DNA from: Bryobacterales bacterium
GTDB taxonomy: Bacteria; Acidobacteriota; Terriglobia; Bryobacterales; Bryobacteraceae
Assembly (NCBI GenBank): GCA_947446025.1
Contig: CANFEY010000019.1
Coordinates: forward strand, 1-64,000
DNA: 64,000 bases
Reading direction: 5' to 3'
Shown here: one piece after another, positions 2,791 to 40,251 of the stretch
Layout of the letters: each line of letters opens with the position of its first letter
Numbering within the stretch: position 1 is the first letter of the stretch
The notes under the pieces: generated by a model
Databases searched by the model: none
What the model was told of the DNA's origin: nothing
What the model saw: the letters and a program-made list of their open reading frames with translations, nothing else
Made by a program: the position numbers and the translations under genes

Positions 2791-3915
2791 TTAGGGCTGA
2801 ACTTGCAGCAACACAAATCCGGCCAGCTGGGCGGCTTTCCCGTCCTGAAAAATGATCCGCCGCGTCTTGGGGAACGGAAGTCCCGTGCGTAGCGCCTTTT
2901 CAAAGAAAGCCACGCGCTTGGCCAGCGTCCGGAAATCCGGGGCAGAGGTGTCTGACACCGAATTCTTCGACAACACCCCGCCGCCCCAGCCTATGGAGAG
3001 TATACAAGCATCATTCCGCGACATGAGTTCCGTGAGCTTCGCTTCCAGCCCGTCAATGGTCGCGGCCAGCGGAGCCAAGCCTGTCCACTCCGCATACAGC
3101 TTGTGCTGAGCCAACTGCGCCGAGGCGAACCGGTTTGCGGCATGGAACATCTTCGCGCGGTCGCGTTGCGAGGATTCGCTCCACACGCCTTCAAAGCGAG
3201 TGCCGGGAGAAGCCATCTCGGCGAATGTCGGCGTGCTGTCGTCGATGCGTCTCGCCTCAGCAGTACCGCGCGCCGACTTCCAACCCAACTCGTATTTGCC
3301 CTCGCCCTTTGCGATCAGCGTCGAGGTGCGGAGCATGTAAACTTTCATGCCGGTGTGCGGGATGCTGCCCGAATCGCCGGCCGCAACACGCCGCATCAGA
3401 CTCTTGCCCGCCCCGCCCAGCACTGCTTCTTCAGCCTTGAGAGCAGGATTGCGCGGGATCCGTTTGCCTTCGGCCTCGTCCGCCTCGATGCGCTTCACCA
3501 GGTCGCCCATGGTAGCTTCGCTCCAGCGGTCGAACACCGCCGCCGTGCGTAACGCACCCTTAATCGACGTGGCGGGAAGGTAAGCTCCACCAGTGGCCAA
3601 CGTGGCGAACGTCGGGATAAACAAACCCGCCGCCGGCATCTTCTCAATCACCGGCACCGCGCTGGCGTGCTCAAACGGAATGCGCCGCCCCGCGTAGTTC
3701 TGCGCGAATCCGCCCCACGAAGCAAAGTCCAATTTCTCAGCCCGCTTCAACTGCGCCAGGTACCCCTCAAAGCGCGGACCGTTGGCCAGCAAGCGTAGGA
3801 TGCGCCGCTGATCCAGCACGTTGACGTGATCCTTCCACACCATATAATCGATGGGCGAAAGCTTGCTGCCATCGCCGACCAGCGTCGGCGTCAAACAGGT
3901 GACGCGGTACTTCAT
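2791..3915 (-). CDS. csm5: Type III-A CRISPR RAMP protein Csm5
   Basis: This 374-residue RAMP subunit caps the 3' end of crRNA in the Csm interference complex. The N-terminus shows the Csm5 pattern of a first beta strand followed by TPTLVGDGSKLSPIDYMV, comparable to the usual TPLHIGSG-KLSP-DY signature. A mid-protein LPATSIKGALRTA is the RAMP glycine loop (usual form IPGSSIKGALR). The start codon overlaps the csm4 stop by 4 nt, implying translational coupling. It is the last csm gene of the operon and the order csm1-2-3-4-5 is canonical. Nothing indicates truncation. Confidence 0.9.
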   Translation of the reverse strand: MKYRVTCLTPTLVGDGSKLSPIDYMVWKDHVNVLDQRRILRLLANGPRFEGYLAQLKRAEKLDFASWGGFAQNYAGRRIPFEHASAVPVIEKMPAAGLFIPTFATLATGGAYLPATSIKGALRTAAVFDRWSEATMGDLVKRIEADEAEGKRIPRNPALKAEEAVLGGAGKSLMRRVAAGDSGSIPHTGMKVYMLRTSTLIAKGEGKYELGWKSARGTAEARRIDDSTPTFAEMASPGTRFEGVWSESSQRDRAKMFHAANRFASAQLAQHKLYAEWTGLAPLAATIDGLEAKLTELMSRNDACILSIGWGGGVLSKNSVSDTSAPDFRTLAKRVAFFEKALRTGLPFPKTRRIIFQDGKAAQLAGFVLLQVQP

Positions 3916-4916
3916 GCCGTCACCTTCACAGGAATCGGAATCGTGAGCGCGAACCCCGCCCGATACACCGGATGCGCAAACCCGTCCGGCGCAACATCCG
4001 CCGCGCTTCCCCGCGGAGCCGAAGCAGCCACCAACACCGACCCTTCCGCCACCATCCGCGTCAGCTTCTTGCTGTCACCCCACCCCGCGCTACTCTCCAC
4101 GCGCCCGCCACGAGTAGTCAGAAGGTAATCCCCCCGCTCCCAGTCAATCGCATCCGACTCCGCCGGCGAGTAAACACTCAAGAGCCAATAGCCCCATGCG
4201 TCAGCTTGGGGCCTAGAAATCACCAACCCCGGCAACTCGCCCGCCGTAATCTCCGGCATCTCCGACCGCCCCCACCCCCGAGACCGCTCTCCGCCCATTC
4301 CAGAATCCGCCAACAATCGGAACGCAGCCGTAAGCGGCCCAGTCCAGCGATCCCGAGCCGAATCATCCGCAAACTCCGCCACAGTCCACAACCCGCAGTC
4401 CTGCGTGAATTCCAAACAAGCCGTCGAGTGCGGAGTAACGCTGGCACCATCCCGATCCACTGCCGCGCTAGACCGCACAGCCACGCGGAACGGCCCCGGC
4501 ACCGACGGATTACGCGAAGGCACCAAGCATTCGCTCTCCGCATCCACAACCCAAGCACCCTCCGACAACGTGCGCCCCGCAGCCAAAGTTTCCACTACGC
4601 TCACAGGCACAAACCGCGCACCCTTCCAGCGAACCTTTGAGGATGCCTGCGGTGGCCACAAATTCCGCGGAGGTGCCACCAACAGCGTATCGCCCTGATA
4701 CGGGAAGCACGACCCAAAGCGCACAGCAGGCTCCACCGCCCGCGCCGTAGCGTCCAGCCAGTCGTCCAGCGACCCCAACTGCGCCATCGCGCTGGACACA
4801 GCCGAATACAGCGAGTCGCTGTGAAACACGCGATCCACGCGATCCCGCACACCGGAATCCGGACCAATGCGCCACGGACCCGTAGGCCGCAACTTGATGA
4901 TGAGTCCCTGAGACAT
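3912..4916 (-). CDS. csm4: Type III-A CRISPR RAMP protein Csm4
   Basis: This 334-residue Cas5-like RAMP protein binds the 5' handle of crRNA and contacts Cas10 in the Csm complex. Recognisable parts are the N-terminal strand with PTGPWRIG, the FHSDSLYSAVSSAM segment typical of Csm4 (target-RNA and Cas10 contact region) and a late GGERSRGWGR glycine-rich RAMP loop. It overlaps csm5 by 4 nt but is separated from csm3 by about 56 nt that hold a small palindromic repeat. Length is normal for the family. Confidence 0.9.
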   Translation of the reverse strand: MSQGLIIKLRPTGPWRIGPDSGVRDRVDRVFHSDSLYSAVSSAMAQLGSLDDWLDATARAVEPAVRFGSCFPYQGDTLLVAPPRNLWPPQASSKVRWKGARFVPVSVVETLAAGRTLSEGAWVVDAESECLVPSRNPSVPGPFRVAVRSSAAVDRDGASVTPHSTACLEFTQDCGLWTVAEFADDSARDRWTGPLTAAFRLLADSGMGGERSRGWGRSEMPEITAGELPGLVISRPQADAWGYWLLSVYSPAESDAIDWERGDYLLTTRGGRVESSAGWGDSKKLTRMVAEGSVLVAASAPRGSAADVAPDGFAHPVYRAGFALTIPIPVKVTA

Positions 4917-4926
4917 TCTTTGGACG

Positions 4927-4943
4927 GCAGGCTTCCAGCCTGC
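4927..4943. repeat. Short palindrome between csm3 and csm4
   Basis: A GCAGGCT / AGCCTGC inverted repeat with a 3-nt loop sits in the only sizeable gap inside the csm operon. A second imperfect GGCGG/CCGCC pairing follows at about 4944-4963 and then a run of pyrimidines. It resembles a REP-like palindromic unit. It could also act as a processing or attenuation hairpin between csm3 and csm4. Confidence 0.5.
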
Positions 4944-4972
4944 GGCGGACCTCAGGCCCGCCCTCCCTTTTT

Positions 4973-5806
4973 CTAGCTCAGCTTCTCGCCGAACGAAGCA
5001 TCATTCACCAGCGACTGCACCGCCGCTAGATCCGCGCCCGAAGCCAGTTCCGCTTCCGCCGCGCCCGTCGAGTAGAACGCCTCGCCGCGCCACGTAAGGC
5101 CCAGGTTCGCGAAGCGCACACGCCCGCTACCGCGCGATCCGCCGCCGCCCAGCGCGTCATCTTCCAGCAGCCGCAACCCGCCGATCAGCCGCCCAACCAG
5201 AGCCTTGTCTTCCTCGCACAACACGTCCAGCACCATGCGCACACGGAACCGCGCCCCCGCCGGCACACGTTCCAGCGTCCGGGGATTCGCCTGCGACGTG
5301 ATGCGGTCAATCGCGTTCTCGCTCTTGACCTCAGTGATCTCGTCGTCCAGATTCTCGCGCATCTGTGCCGTGATGCTTTCCTGATCCAGCGGCGCATCGT
5401 ATACGGCCAAGCGTGCAGGACTCGCCGAACGCGCGTCCAGAGCCTCGCCCTCCACGCGCTCCATGCGTCCCGGATTGCGCCCAAACAGCAGGCAGATTTC
5501 GTCGTCCGGACGGTCGCTCTGATGGATGCGGACTTCCTGCCCGCGCCGCTTCGACAAGTAAACCAGTTCAGACGGAGACGTCAGCCCCATCGCCGTCTCC
5601 AGCAGCGACCGCAGCCGCCCGCGCAGCGAACTGCCCGGAATGTACGGCAGCCCGAAGGCGTCCTTCACCACCGGATTATCCGCGCCGCCGATCTCGAGCG
5701 ATCCCTTGCCCGCACCGATGTGCAGGCCCGTTTCGCAGTGCAGGTCACCGGCCAGAATCAGCTTGCCAATCAATTTCAATTTCGTTTGAGCAGTATGTTG
5801 GCTCAT
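4973..5806 (-). CDS. csm3: Type III-A CRISPR RAMP protein Csm3 (target-RNA nuclease backbone)
   Basis: This 277-residue protein forms the helical backbone of the Csm complex and cuts target RNA every 6 nt. I chose the ATG at 5806 (MSQHTAQ) because it follows the csm2 stop by 10 nt; the upstream in-frame ATG at 5845 lies inside csm2. ETGLHIG contains the conserved His, and IGGADNPV contains the Asp (residue 43) that aligns with catalytic Asp33 of Streptococcus thermophilus Csm3, so RNase activity is probably retained. LPYIPGSSLRGRLRSLLE and IDRITSQANPRTLER are further hallmark Csm3 segments, and GGGGSRGSGRV is the C-terminal glycine loop. Confidence 0.93.
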   Translation of the reverse strand: MSQHTAQTKLKLIGKLILAGDLHCETGLHIGAGKGSLEIGGADNPVVKDAFGLPYIPGSSLRGRLRSLLETAMGLTSPSELVYLSKRRGQEVRIHQSDRPDDEICLLFGRNPGRMERVEGEALDARSASPARLAVYDAPLDQESITAQMRENLDDEITEVKSENAIDRITSQANPRTLERVPAGARFRVRMVLDVLCEEDKALVGRLIGGLRLLEDDALGGGGSRGSGRVRFANLGLTWRGEAFYSTGAAEAELASGADLAAVQSLVNDASFGEKLS

Positions 5807-5816
5807 ATAGTCTCGC

Positions 5817-6530
5817 TTATTCGTTGTAAGCCACGATGGCTTCAAACAGATCCTTAAATCTCTCGTATCCTTGTGCGTTATTCTTGCGCGTCACCGCCAG
5901 CAGCAGCCGCTCCAGCCCATCCAAACTCCGCAGCGAATGCCGCGCAATGGTGTAGGCCAAGCGAGCCCGCAACATCACGAACTGATGCTGCCGGTCGCTC
6001 TCCGGAGCCCGCACCGCGCGCCGCACCGCGTTGAACAAACGCCGCAACTGGCTCTTGGTGCCGCTATCCATATCCCGCATGCGCGCCACCACCGCGTGCG
6101 CCTGATTGTCCAGATAGAGACTGTCGCTGATGAGCTTCTCGATGTCGATGTCCATCATCGACTCAAACGGCCGCCCGCCGCGATCACCGCCGCGATCACC
6201 ACCGGGACGCCCGCCTTCGCGACGTTCCCCGCCACCCGGCCGAGGACCACGATCCCCCGCCGGACGCCCGCCACCCTCCGGACGCGGACCCCGCTCGGGA
6301 CGCGGGCCACGCTCCGGCCGGCCCTCGCGCTTTTCACCACGCGGTTCCCGCACCTGAGGTTGGTTCTCCTTCGGCGGACGGCCTTCGCGCAAAGCCTGAT
6401 TCAGCTTCGCCGCCATATCCGCAACCGCCGGAGTGGATGACTGCTCCACCGCCGGAGTTGCTACAGGTTCCGCCGCAGCTTCCGCCGCTGGTTCCGGATT
6501 GGGAGTAATGCTCTCTTGATTCTCTTCCAT
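5817..6530 (-). CDS. csm2: Csm2 with a long disordered Arg/Gly-rich N-terminal extension
   Basis: This is the small helical subunit of the type III-A complex, here 237 residues against the usual 120-160. The Csm2 core is residues about 122-237, with a helical segment containing LRRLFNAVRR, then MLRARLAYTIARH and the signature-like FEAIVAYNE end. Residues 1-60 are Ala/Glu/Pro-rich. Residues 61-120 are a low-complexity tract built from RPERGP, RPEGG and GGDRGG units, resembling RGG-type RNA-binding disorder. The start is well supported: GAGGAG lies 7 nt before the ATG at 6530 and 20 nt behind the cas10 stop, so the extension is very likely translated. An internal ATG at 6158 would give a core-only protein but lacks comparable support. 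Confidence 0.88.
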   Translation of the reverse strand: MEENQESITPNPEPAAEAAAEPVATPAVEQSSTPAVADMAAKLNQALREGRPPKENQPQVREPRGEKREGRPERGPRPERGPRPEGGGRPAGDRGPRPGGGERREGGRPGGDRGGDRGGRPFESMMDIDIEKLISDSLYLDNQAHAVVARMRDMDSGTKSQLRRLFNAVRRAVRAPESDRQHQFVMLRARLAYTIARHSLRSLDGLERLLLAVTRKNNAQGYERFKDLFEAIVAYNE

Positions 6531-6549
6531 ACAAACTCCTCGCCTTACT

Positions 6550-7986
6550 TCAGGCTTGAGCGGCTGACAGCCTCGCCCATTCTAGCGCCACGCGCCCCGC
6601 CGGCCGCAGCTTCACGGTAATCGCGCTACGCCCGATCAAATCCGCAATCAGCGCCGCGCGCGCCTTCTGATATTCCTGCCGTCCCTTGTTGCCCGGACGC
6701 GCCGCATTCAAAATCCGCCGGATTCGCCGATGATAGCGCCACGGCCTCTCGCCACCCATCTTGCGCGCCTGCCGCTTCGACACCCGCGACTGCGTCTCGC
6801 GATAAATGCCGCACAAGTCGCGCAAGTACTGCGGCGAGCAACCGAACTCCGTCACCATCTTCGACAACGAATCTTTCAACGTCGCGGCTTCCGCGAACTG
6901 CTTCCATTCCAGCGTCCGCCCCAGCAGCCAGATGCAGTCTTTACTGGCCGACTTCGCCGCCTCCAGCCGCTGCCCCGCTTCCTCGAACACCGCGCCCAGC
7001 GACGCATCCACCGCCGGAGCCATCGCCAGCGCCATCGTGATCGTCTTGCCTTCCAGGCCGTCCAAGTCTTTTAGGTTCGTCTCCGCGAAGCGGTGGAACA
7101 AGCGCTGCACCTCGCCTGCCAGCCCGATCAGCGCATCCCACGATCCGTACACCGCGAAGTCGTCTCCGCCCGAATACATCACCGTAACCTTGCGCCAGAA
7201 CTCCGGCATGCTGCACAACACTTCCAGCTCACCCGCGAAAAACTGCTTGTACATCACCGACAACGAGATGTGTTCCTCAATCGAAGCCGCGCGCTGCATG
7301 CGGATCGCGAAGTTGTCTACGTCGCCCCGTAACACGCCCCAAGTTTCCACTCCACCCGCGCGCCCCGCAAGTACCGCCGTCGAGGCAGGCTCGGTGCCGT
7401 CTTCGCTGGGAGCCGTGTGCCGCGCAAACGGGATCGAATCCAGCCCCGCCAGTGTCCACGAATGTTTCCCCGCCGACGTAGTCACCCGCCCCGGCGTCTC
7501 AGCCGACCAGCAAACCGTCTCCGCGTCACGCAACGGAAACCCAAGTTCGGTAACGAAATATTCTTCCGCCGAAGCATCCGCCACAGTCACGGAAGCGTCA
7601 AACCCCGGCGCGCCCCGCCGCCGCTCTAGACCTTCATTGAGACGCTTGCGGACGTCAGTCCAATCGCCCAGATTCTCCGTGGAACTCCAGATCAGCTTCA
7701 ACGCGTTGCCGCTCAACTGCCCGATCTCCGCCGCCGCCGCAGCCAGGAACGCATCCGCCGCCTCGCGCGACTCAATCGGCAGCAGCATCAGAAACCGCCC
7801 ACCACCGCTCGATCCCAGCAGAATCTTCGCGAGCCCCAGCTCACTCAGCAGTGCGCGGGGCAGCACTTCGCTCAACAGACTAATCCAATGCGACCGCCCC
7901 GTAAACACCGCATCGGCGTCACGTGTGGCGGGAGCCAAGAGACAATCGTCCACTCCCAGGAGCTTACCTTCAAGAAAAATCTGCAT
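6550..7986 (-). CDS. csm1: Cas10/Csm1 lacking the HD domain, GGDD cyclase motif intact
   Basis: This large subunit of the type III-A complex is only 478 residues, whereas most Csm1 proteins are 700-850. The protein begins directly in the first Palm domain (GRSHWISLLSEVLPR, then SSGGGRFLMLLP), so the usual N-terminal HD DNase domain is missing. No CxxC zinc-finger pairs are seen between the Palms. The second Palm has GDVDNF at about residue 221 and SGGDDF with GGDD at residues 273-276, the cyclic-oligoadenylate synthase site, which looks intact. A helical Csm1-type C-terminal domain follows. The start lies only 15 nt from the stop of cobA-hemD, leaving no room for a lost HD domain upstream or for a normal promoter. 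Confidence 0.9.
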   Translation of the reverse strand: MQIFLEGKLLGVDDCLLAPATRDADAVFTGRSHWISLLSEVLPRALLSELGLAKILLGSSGGGRFLMLLPIESREAADAFLAAAAAEIGQLSGNALKLIWSSTENLGDWTDVRKRLNEGLERRRGAPGFDASVTVADASAEEYFVTELGFPLRDAETVCWSAETPGRVTTSAGKHSWTLAGLDSIPFARHTAPSEDGTEPASTAVLAGRAGGVETWGVLRGDVDNFAIRMQRAASIEEHISLSVMYKQFFAGELEVLCSMPEFWRKVTVMYSGGDDFAVYGSWDALIGLAGEVQRLFHRFAETNLKDLDGLEGKTITMALAMAPAVDASLGAVFEEAGQRLEAAKSASKDCIWLLGRTLEWKQFAEAATLKDSLSKMVTEFGCSPQYLRDLCGIYRETQSRVSKRQARKMGGERPWRYHRRIRRILNAARPGNKGRQEYQKARAALIADLIGRSAITVKLRPAGRVALEWARLSAAQA

Positions 7987-8001
7987 GTGCGGGCGAAACC
8001 A

Positions 8002-9564
8002 TCACTGTAGCATGCCTGCCACTAGGCCAGCGATGGTATGTGGGTTCGCCTCAACCTCGACGTGCAGTCCAAGCTCCCGTGCTGTGGCCGACGTGATCGG
8101 ACCAATCGACGCCACCTTCGCTCCCGCCGGCACGCCCGCTGCCGCGACGAAATTCTTCACCGTCGACGAACTGGTGAACGTGATCCATTGCGGCTTGCGC
8201 TCCATGACTTCCTTCGCGCGCGCCGCTAAGCCCTCGGGAGCCTCCGTGCGATACGCCTCCACCACATCCACAATCGCCCCGCGCTTGCGCAATTCTTCCG
8301 GCACCACATCCCGAGCCACAGCCGCACGAGGCAGCAGCACCCGCTTCCCGCGCAGATCCTCGCCAGCAAGCGCTTCGAGCAAACTCTCCGCTACGTACTC
8401 CGCAGGCATACAGTCTGCTTTCAGATGCAGCGCCTCGACGGCGGCCCTCGTCGCTGGACCAATCGCGGCGACTCTCGCACGCAGCTTGCGGATGTCGTCG
8501 AGCCCCGCCACGAAGCGCTTCACTCCGTTGACGCTGGTGAAAATCACCCAGTCGTACGAATCCAGCCGCTCCATCGCCCGAGCCATCGGACCCGGGTCAG
8601 CAGGCGACCGAATCTCAATCACCGGCAGCGCGATCACCTCCGCGCCCAACGCCTCCAGCGGCTCCGCCAAATCCCGCGACTGCCGATGGTCCCGCGTAAT
8701 CACAATCCGTTGGCCGAACAGCGGCAGCTTCTCAAACCAACTGAAGCGATCCCGCAGCGACACCACCTCGCCGATCACAATTGTCGCCGGCGGCTTCAGC
8801 CCCTGCGCCGCGATCAGACCCGGCAGCGTTTCGAGCGTCCCCACAATCGTCTGCTGATTCGGACGAGTCGCCCACCGCACCACCATCGCCGGAGTATGCT
8901 TCGACCGTCCCCGCGCCACCATCTCCCGAGCGATCTCGGCGAAGTTCACCAGCCCCATGAACAGCACCACTGTCTCCGCTGACCCGACCTTGCCCCAGTC
9001 AATTGCATCCACCCGATGCCCCGTCACAAACGTCACCGCTGAGGTATGCTCGCGATGCGTCAGCGGCACCCCCGTGTACGCCGCCACGCCGAGCGGCACG
9101 GTCACTCCCGGCACAATCTCAAACGCCACGCCCGCCGCCGCCAGCGCCTCAACCTCTTCCCCGCCCCGCGCGAAGATGAACGGATCGCCGCCCTTCAGCC
9201 GAACCACAGTGCGCCCGCGCGCGGCATGCTCCACCAACAGCGCGTTGATCTCCTCCTGTGACATCTCATGGTCCGCGCGCTTCTTGCCCACGTAGATCCG
9301 CTCAGCCGAAGCAGGCGCATAATCGAGCAGCCGGTCACTAGCCAGCGCGTCATAGAGCACGACATCCGCGCGCTCAAGCACCTTGCGCCCCTTGACCGTG
9401 ATTAAATCCGGATCGCCAGGCCCCGCCCCAACCAAAAACACTTTGGGGACAGTATACTCAACTCCCGAATTCCCCCCAGACTTTCCCTTAGACCCTCCGC
9501 CGACCCGGGGGAATTCGGGAGTTGAGTATACTGTCCCTCCATTCCCTCCATTCCCGCTGCTCAT
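8002..9564 (-). CDS. cobA-hemD: Fused uroporphyrinogen-III C-methyltransferase / uroporphyrinogen-III synthase
   Basis: This 520-residue bifunctional enzyme links heme and siroheme synthesis. Residues about 40-290 are the SAM-dependent methyltransferase (SUMT), with VGAGPGDPDLITVKG at its start and VVRLKGGDPFIFARGG. Residues about 290-520 are the HemD synthase that closes the tetrapyrrole ring (TSVNGVKRF, TFTSSSTVKNF). The ATG at 9564 overlaps the hemC stop by 4 nt, supporting it as the true start. That start gives an odd 40-residue N-terminal extension encoded by a perfect 31-bp inverted repeat, not by SUMT sequence. A start at a later codon near the SUMT domain is an alternative. Confidence 0.92.
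   Translation of the reverse strand: MSSGNGGNGGTVYSTPEFPRVGGGSKGKSGGNSGVEYTVPKVFLVGAGPGDPDLITVKGRKVLERADVVLYDALASDRLLDYAPASAERIYVGKKRADHEMSQEEINALLVEHAARGRTVVRLKGGDPFIFARGGEEVEALAAAGVAFEIVPGVTVPLGVAAYTGVPLTHREHTSAVTFVTGHRVDAIDWGKVGSAETVVLFMGLVNFAEIAREMVARGRSKHTPAMVVRWATRPNQQTIVGTLETLPGLIAAQGLKPPATIVIGEVVSLRDRFSWFEKLPLFGQRIVITRDHRQSRDLAEPLEALGAEVIALPVIEIRSPADPGPMARAMERLDSYDWVIFTSVNGVKRFVAGLDDIRKLRARVAAIGPATRAAVEALHLKADCMPAEYVAESLLEALAGEDLRGKRVLLPRAAVARDVVPEELRKRGAIVDVVEAYRTEAPEGLAARAKEVMERKPQWITFTSSSTVKNFVAAAGVPAGAKVASIGPITSATARELGLHVEVEANPHTIAGLVAGMLQ
9446..9537. repeat. Perfect 31-bp inverted repeat inside the 5' end of cobA-hemD
   Basis: Positions 9446-9476 are exactly reverse-complementary to 9507-9537, separated by a 30-nt spacer. 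The arms contain GTATAC and GAATTC. The repeat lies just inside the cobA-hemD reading frame and adds about 35 residues. It has the look of a mobile palindromic element of the REP/MITE kind; that identity is inference. Confidence 0.85.
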
Positions 9565-13104: not shown

Positions 13105-13674
13105 ATGCTCGAGCCTTCTCCCGACGACGTGAGCACCCTGCTCATCCGCTGGAGCGACGGCGACCGCGCTGCCCTCGACCAGCTCATGCCGCTGGTCTAC
13201 TCCGAACTCCACCTGCTCGCCGCCGCCTACCTCCGCCGCGAGCGCCCCGGCCACTCCCTCCAGAGCACCGGCATCGTCCATGAAGCCTTCCTCAAACTGG
13301 TGGACCAACGCCACGTCCGCTGGCAGGACCGCGCCCACTTCTAAGGCGTCACCGCGCAAATCATGCGCCGCATCCTGGTCGATCACGCCCGCGCCAAACA
13401 CCGTAAAAAGCGCGGCGGAGAAATGGAAACGCTCGCCCTTGACGAAGGCCTCCATGTCTCGCCGCGCAAAAGTGTCCAGATTATCGCCCTCGATGACGCC
13501 CTCACCGCACTCGCCCAACTCGACCAGCAACAGTGCACCGTCGTCGAAATGCGCTTCTTCGGCGGCCTCACTCTGGAAGAGACCGCCGAAGCCCTGCGTA
13601 TTTCCCGCGCCACCGTCCATCGCGACTGGGTCACCGCCCGCGCCTGGCTCATGCGCGAGCTGGCCGCTGCGTAG
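13105..13674 (+). pseudogene. ECF sigma factor (TIGR02999/SigX6 type) interrupted by an in-frame TAA
   Basis: The combined reading frame encodes a complete ECF-type sigma factor of about 189 residues. Region 2 reads [24 protein letters not shown] and ends in WQDRAHF; after TAA at 13342-13344 the same frame continues GVTAQIMRRILVDHARAKHRKK and then region 4 with VVEMRFFGGLTLEETAEALRIS and a helix-turn-helix. The stop replaces the second aromatic residue of the conserved HF(F/Y)GVAA segment. No frameshift is needed, so this is one nonsense codon in an otherwise well-preserved gene. Readthrough, a sequencing error or recent inactivation are possible. The ATG at 13363 could restart a region-4-only fragment. 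Confidence 0.88.
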
Positions 13675-40206: not shown

Positions 40207-40251
40207 GTCTTCAATGACTCCGGGGTCGACCCCGGAGACGCTTTGGAGGTA

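Follow-up and report, generated by a model that had tools for sequence, protein, structure and literature searches.

A vertically inherited Csm complex with a predicted disordered Csm2 tail in an acidobacterial family

The window analysed here, the first 64,000 bases of a contig of 65,718 bases, carries a five-gene operon, cas10-csm2-csm3-csm4-csm5, at 2791–7986, as recognised by Pfam, PADLOC and NCBIfam models (Table 1). The csm2 open reading frame lies on the minus strand, with its ATG at 6530 and its stop at 5817–5819, and encodes 237 amino acids. The sequence GGCGAGGAG-TTTGT is found directly 5′ of this ATG, and a GAGGAG ribosome site stands five bases before it, in agreement with an earlier note on this DNA that had described a strong ribosome site without naming the strand. 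Some of the Csm3 queries used below began 9 bases upstream of the csm3 ATG, at 5815. A promoter-like TGNTANA(G/T)TG motif occurs within 120 bases upstream of cas10 in 31 of the 54 loci with cas10 and is absent in the other 23. Near the operon, an open reading frame for an IS66-family transposase (122–1678, 518 aa) stands at the very start of the contig.

Table 1. Coordinates and basis of the features of the csm locus in the window.
Feature	Position	Strand	Basis or remark
csm2	5817–6530	minus	237 aa: tail (residues 1–122) and core (123–237); ORF, Pfam PF03750, NCBIfam TIGR01870
csm2 tail, predicted disordered, R/G/P/E-rich	6165–6530	minus	composition; pLDDT 45–56; similar tail in 55/55 family loci
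Csm2 core, helical bundle (modelled)	5820–6164	minus	identity to 54 relatives; dN/dS; model
csm2 ribosome-binding site (GGCGAGGAGTTTGT before ATG)	6531–6544	minus	
cas10	6550–7986	minus	478 aa; no HD domain recognised; palm2 with GGDD; Pfam PF22335, E 1.3e-16
csm3	4973–5806	minus	277 aa from ATG at 5806; GGADNPV catalytic Asp; TIGR02582, E 3.3e-60
csm4	3912–4916	minus	334 aa; TIGR01903, 136.9 bits against cut-off 55
csm5	2791–3915	minus	374 aa; TIGR01899, 47.6 bits against cut-off 38.3
cobA-hemD fusion	8002–9564	minus	neighbour, outside the complex; 15 bases upstream of cas10
Promoter-like element (ATGCTACAGTGATGGTTTCGCC...)	7987–8013	minus	just upstream of cas10, overlaps the end of hemD; pattern match only

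The C-terminal part of the protein is a genuine Csm2. Residues 140–235 match Pfam Csm2_III-A (PF03750) with an E value of 2.9e-10 and 41.3 bits against a cut-off of 24.8, TIGR01870 gives 39.1 bits against a cut-off of 30.6, and the PADLOC models agree. In an AlphaFold2 model built from 14 sequences, residues 131–237 have pLDDT values of 84–92 and form six helices, five of them long. A Foldseek search of the PDB with this model places small-subunit-length chains of Csm complexes, which we take to be Csm2 from their length, at ranks 1–18 with probabilities of 0.91–1.00 and TM-scores by target of 0.49–0.70; the best E value is 0.03 and none reaches 0.001, the tail in the model diluting the query. 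The modelled core has the helical-bundle fold of the Csm2 small subunit. Its dN/dS is 0.01–0.10 over 13 pairs of loci (rough values), and for the window and locus L084 it is 0.023, against 0.057–0.105 for four genes of the hem cluster. To call this a normal Csm2 core, as the earlier note did, is correct as to its identity and understates how distinct it is: the core of the window is 77–96 percent identical to those of 54 relatives in the family, and it is matched only weakly by the second, canonical Csm2 that three genomes of the same family carry.

Ahead of the core, residues 1–122 form a low-complexity stretch with 16 percent Arg, 17 percent Gly, 16 percent Pro, 14 percent Glu and 11 percent Ala and a single aromatic residue, while the Pfam and NCBIfam matches fall on the core; the Arg/Gly/Pro/Glu tract first noticed N-terminal to Csm2 is thus confirmed by composition. 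The tail is predicted to be disordered, with block-mean pLDDT values of 45–56 over residues 1–120 and one short helix. The description of the tails as RGG-type arms holds for their richness in Arg and Gly and is otherwise a loose label. The window's tail contains 2 RGG and 6 RG in 122 residues and lacks the clustered RGG repeats that define an RGG box. Its overall net charge is +1; the first half is acidic and rich in Ala and Pro, and only the final 40 residues are clearly basic, with a net charge of +4. RG/RGG-tailed RNA-binding proteins likewise carry an Arg/Gly-rich disordered arm beside a folded domain, whereas the Csm2 tail has few true RGG, many acidic residues and almost no aromatics. 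The tail may bind RNA, perhaps weakly.

Relatives were sought among 101 genomes, of which 61 belong to the window's family and 23 to its genus. Every one of the 55 family loci with csm2 has an R/G/P/E/D-rich tail, and relatives having only the core, which would have spoken against the tail, were looked for in these loci and not found. The tails are 34–161 residues long, 27 of them at 34–68 residues and 28 at 91 or more; these lengths carry some error, the starts having been picked by ribosome-site score, and the csm2 of locus L088 is cut by a contig end. Pooled over the 55 loci, the tails consist of 17.5 percent Arg, 17.1 percent Gly, 15.5 percent Pro and 12.0 percent Glu, with no Cys or Trp. 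Each contains at least 9.9 percent Arg, and the last 40 residues of each have a net charge of +2 to +6. The number of RGG per tail in the 54 relatives is 0–5. No such tail is found in nine canonical Csm2 outside this lineage (six from other families, three from second loci of family genomes), which have polar leaders of about 15–40 residues, judged by eye and with uncertain starts in two of the nine.

Csm3 appears to be an intact nuclease subunit. Its catalytic Asp is present in all 68 rows that cover the position, among 69 Csm3 rows; the residue was identified by aligning solved chains, with the help of two solved variants in which it is missing and of the residue numbering. The possibility that Csm3 is a dead nuclease was rejected, since the two solved chains differ exactly at the Asp of GG-x-D-NPV, which is conserved here. 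Cas10 is short. It matches TIGR02578 with residues 197–471 on positions 490–748 of 753, at 157.7 bits and so under the cut-off of 170, and its residues 12–82 align with positions 279–347 of a solved Cas10. The N-terminal HD part is therefore missing. No HD domain is recognised in it, and 478 residues leave no room for one. Most Cas10 proteins of the lineage have 468–500 residues, with shorter ones of 345, 369 and 450, whereas three of five other Cas10 loci in family genomes encode 831–851 residues with an N-terminal LHDIGKF motif. In the 1500 bases upstream of the 54 cas10 genes no LHDIGKF-like motif was found; the HD dipeptides there are scattered and lie in closed frames or a non-homologous context. 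Locus L100 (genome G028) has matches to csm3 in two separate pieces and to cas10 from residue 209 onward only, and may be a decaying or misassembled copy.

The cyclase motif GGDD is exact in 49 of the 61 distinct genomes with a palm2 domain, the window included. The twelve deviating motifs are GGND (3), GGDE (3), GGHD (2) and one each of GGYD, AGDD, GSDD and GHDQ, and six of these Cas10 proteins also change the first palm2 Asp (L068, L073, L074, L102, L105 and L110). GGDE and AGDD count as acceptable motifs for cyclases presumed to be active (PMC11229360). By that standard eight motifs look damaged, and L105, where the first Asp differs, would make a ninth; the same standard, together with the retention of GGDD in most lineages, argues that signalling still matters. 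The joint changes of the first palm2 Asp and the motif suggest that signalling was lost more than once, with Csm2 and Csm3 remaining conserved.

csm2 was found in 55 of the 61 family genomes and 21 of the 23 of the genus, and csm3 in the same 55 and in two distant genomes outside the family. Hits of the full-length Csm2 query in G066 and G069 (almost wholly on the tail) and one in G068 (half on the tail) were dropped as compositional, which is a judgement. Six family genomes have no csm2 match; one of them, G029, is 99 percent complete, and so loss of the complex does occur. An evenly drawn sample of the phylum, searched with a profile of the Csm2 core, gives matches in 9 of 396 genomes, three of this genus and six distant. 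The gene order is the same in the 54 other family loci as far as the contigs reach, while the surrounding contexts vary. Identity of Csm3 to the window's genome follows that of HemA (r 0.90 over 49 genomes), with Csm3 the more conserved of the two: the averages are 76 against 61 percent outside the genus and 86 against 74 percent within it. In a tree of Csm3 rows of at least 250 residues, the 61 rows from the family group apart from the other 12 as a single clade (support 0.79), and all 21 genus rows fall together (support 0.99). From these genomes, the Csm operon is vertically inherited and near-universal in one acidobacterial family. The counts exclude five loci on contigs already counted (L063, L064, L065, L067 and L070). 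L063 comes from a record titled Bordetella parapertussis that matches contig C6 of G014, a close relative of the window's genome, and is a mislabelled metagenome bin.

Two candidate links to neighbouring genes were rejected. The hem genes were found upstream of cas10 in no more than 6 of 55 loci; these six belong to the same genus, and one has an intervening open reading frame. As for a linked effector, the sole neighbour family outside the operon seen in more than six loci is an ExeA/GspA-like AAA ATPase, named by eye, whose gene follows soon after csm5 in 21 of 55 loci (for instance at 13319–14200 of L083); the window carries a GT87 gene in its place. In several loci of the genus this ATPase gene is preceded by a recurrent TACTATCGAT element.

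The source of guides was sought next to the complex and elsewhere in the genomes. Cas6 (PF10040) is encoded in 58 of the 61 family genomes and in 3 of the 40 others. In the loci read, cas6 is absent from the csm locus, and in the window's own genome it lies on another contig. Its divergence follows that of Csm3 to a moderate degree (r 0.64, 19 genomes). In part of the genus (loci L157, L158, L159, L162, L163, L164 and L168) the neighbours of cas6 are presumably gpsA, plsY and, in some, a 2′,3′-cyclic phosphodiesterase gene; elsewhere in the family the context differs. No CRISPR array was found in the window, in the 54 other csm loci or in the 19 cas6 loci read, nor in 834,961 bases, or 19 percent, of the window's own genome. 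Repeat matches inside five csm loci are not arrays: three are head-to-tail tandem repeats and two are simple repeats by eye. Directly upstream of cas10 in L108, five near-identical 70-base tandem repeats (8026–8374) likewise have no spacers and are not a CRISPR array. Inspected by eye, the flanks of cas10, cas6 and csm5 show promoter-like elements and no common repeat or hairpin that could be a guide RNA, and Rfam finds nothing in the window at the gathering threshold. Genome-wide, Cas1 is present in 27 of the 61 family genomes and arrays with ATTGAARC-ended repeats in 14 of the 61, none of the latter in the window's own genome. Both counts are lower bounds for CRISPR content, the main pattern seeing one type of repeat end; G037, which has Cas1, contains an array with a different end. 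This G037 array came to light with a looser pattern, three GAAAC, whose matches in 99 of 101 genomes stood mostly at the control level; the pattern was kept out of the counts. Both markers are missing in 28 of the 55 csm-bearing genomes, including G010 and G057, both listed as 100 percent complete, in 30 and 120 contigs respectively. Five family genomes have a second Csm3, with arrays at two of those loci. TIGR02710, the one CARF family searched, has matches in 5 of 101 genomes, none of them the window's own; four of the five carry such a second Csm3. The only Cas1 match of that genome lies on contig C106 (L176, 2351–6269), after a Cas9-like open reading frame of 1006 aa named by eye, in a type II-like locus; the contig stops shortly beyond it and shows no array.

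Taken together, we propose, at about an even chance (roughly 0.5), that the family possesses a vertically inherited, RNA-targeting Csm complex that is served by Cas6, bears tail arms and possibly works outside adaptive immunity. Cas6 would supply guide RNA from a precursor other than a neighbouring array, and the Csm3 backbone would bind and cut complementary RNA, while Cas10 would still signal in the majority of lineages, though not in every one. Each Csm2 copy would contribute one tail, a flexible polyampholytic arm projecting from the target-facing filament, with its basic stretch adjoining the core. Most likely these arms would touch RNA or partner proteins through contacts that are weak and multivalent, and so speed target capture or cluster the complexes. 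Since no guide RNA was found, the term RNA-guided stays a proposal. A bolder form of this reading, less likely than not, is a domesticated Csm: a core-genome RNA machine with a stand-alone Cas6, working with a non-array guide or guide-free, in which Csm3 would act in the regulation or quality control of cellular RNA and the tail brush would capture RNA or gather complexes into RNA-rich assemblies.

Alternatively, the complex could be an ordinary type III-A immune effector, whose Csm operon and Cas6 form a stable chromosomal platform, supplied in trans with crRNAs from any arrays that a strain happens to carry. The arrays would then be variable, have other repeat ends or be lost in assembly, and the tail would aid assembly or target search. 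This is a serious contender, if somewhat short of an even chance. The retention of Cas6 can equally mean ordinary crRNAs from arrays that were missed or lost in assembly, given that nearly every genome is split into many contigs and the cas9-cas1 contig of the window's genome shows no array; against this stand the 28 marker-free genomes, among them two listed as 100 percent complete, and the lack of arrays at every csm and cas6 locus read. The lower-bound counts of Cas1 and arrays, the differing repeat end in G037, the intact Csm3 Asp and the mostly intact GGDD agree with an immune role, whereas the absence of an HD domain and of any recurrent linked effector that we could recognise does not. 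CRISPR interference genes are normally patchy and fast-evolving, and immune genes usually turn over fast, whereas Csm3 here is more conserved than HemA.

A further alternative concerns the tail itself. The usual short polar leader of Csm2 might have grown by slippage in GC-rich DNA into near-neutral low-complexity sequence, tolerated as disordered. The spread of lengths from 34 to 161 residues with many indels between relatives, the presence in the tail DNA of three short tandem repeats with periods of 12 or 18, and the polar leaders of the nine canonical Csm2 are in line with such growth. Nevertheless, dN/dS of the tail is 0.06–0.30 over the alignable codons of 13 pairs, values that are rough since many dS exceed 1, and third codon positions take most of the changes in most pairs. 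Moreover, every tail keeps its share of Arg, its lack of Cys and Trp and its net-positive last 40 residues despite the turnover of sequence. Near-neutral growth is therefore unlikely, and selection that keeps the composition and translation of the tail rather than its sequence or length is the best explanation. As a repeated sequence in the window's own genome, the tail has just two weak matches elsewhere, with E values of 0.01 and 0.03. It is an elaboration of a short polar leader, because canonical Csm2 also have such leaders and nearly half of the family tails (27 of 55) are themselves just 34–68 residues long.

A start of translation at one of the two internal ATG codons (6161/6158), leaving the tail unmade, is highly improbable. 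The two codons do stand at the start of the core in the window, but no ribosome site precedes them. Between 10 codons before and 14 codons after the beginning of the core, 42 of 55 family loci have no ATG and 34 of 55 have no ATG, GTG or TTG; 26 of 55 have no alternative start codon between the first codon and core codon 14, and coding constraint is visible in the tail. A start at 6158, which according to the earlier note would refute its reading if shown, is not supported as judged from sequence, and all the sequence evidence points to a translated tail.

With type III-A Csm complexes the family complex shares the palm2 domain of Cas10, Csm2 to Csm5 as recognised by models, the catalytic Asp of Csm3 and a small-subunit-like Csm2 core. 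It differs from them in having no recognised HD domain, no array or cas6 in its loci, vertical and near-universal occurrence, and a tailed Csm2. If the proposed reading is true, a housekeeping-like Csm whose Csm3 is more conserved than HemA, and which has neither a DNA nuclease nor a nearby array, would be a type III system with a standing cellular job. With the tail, an RNA-guided filament that is well studied would gain a disordered arm, with a possible effect on target capture. The reduced type III systems III-E, III-G, III-H and III-I have in common with it a reductive trend and the loss of Cas10 activities (PMC12669027, PMC8730458), whereas the family complex keeps five separate Csm genes, lacks the HD domain, and deviates in the cyclase motif in some lineages only. 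The retention of Cas genes for a non-immune use has a precedent in exapted CRISPR systems such as the dev operon of Myxobacteria (PMC8730458); in the present case a type III Csm complex is involved, family-wide, and its non-immune role is a proposal. The earlier note knew of no described Csm2 of this kind, and neither a tailed Csm2 nor an acidobacterial core-genome Csm complex turned up in the literature searched, which is weak evidence as that literature was open-access only.

Outside the csm locus, the window contains at 40249–62598 five to six long direct-repeat units, spaced at about 3.7–4.8 kb and 61–80 percent identical to the reference units, which we take to be probably a tandem family of large receptor-like genes. 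Four of the gaps in this region carry a GGGCCACCC hairpin-like repeat before a run of T.
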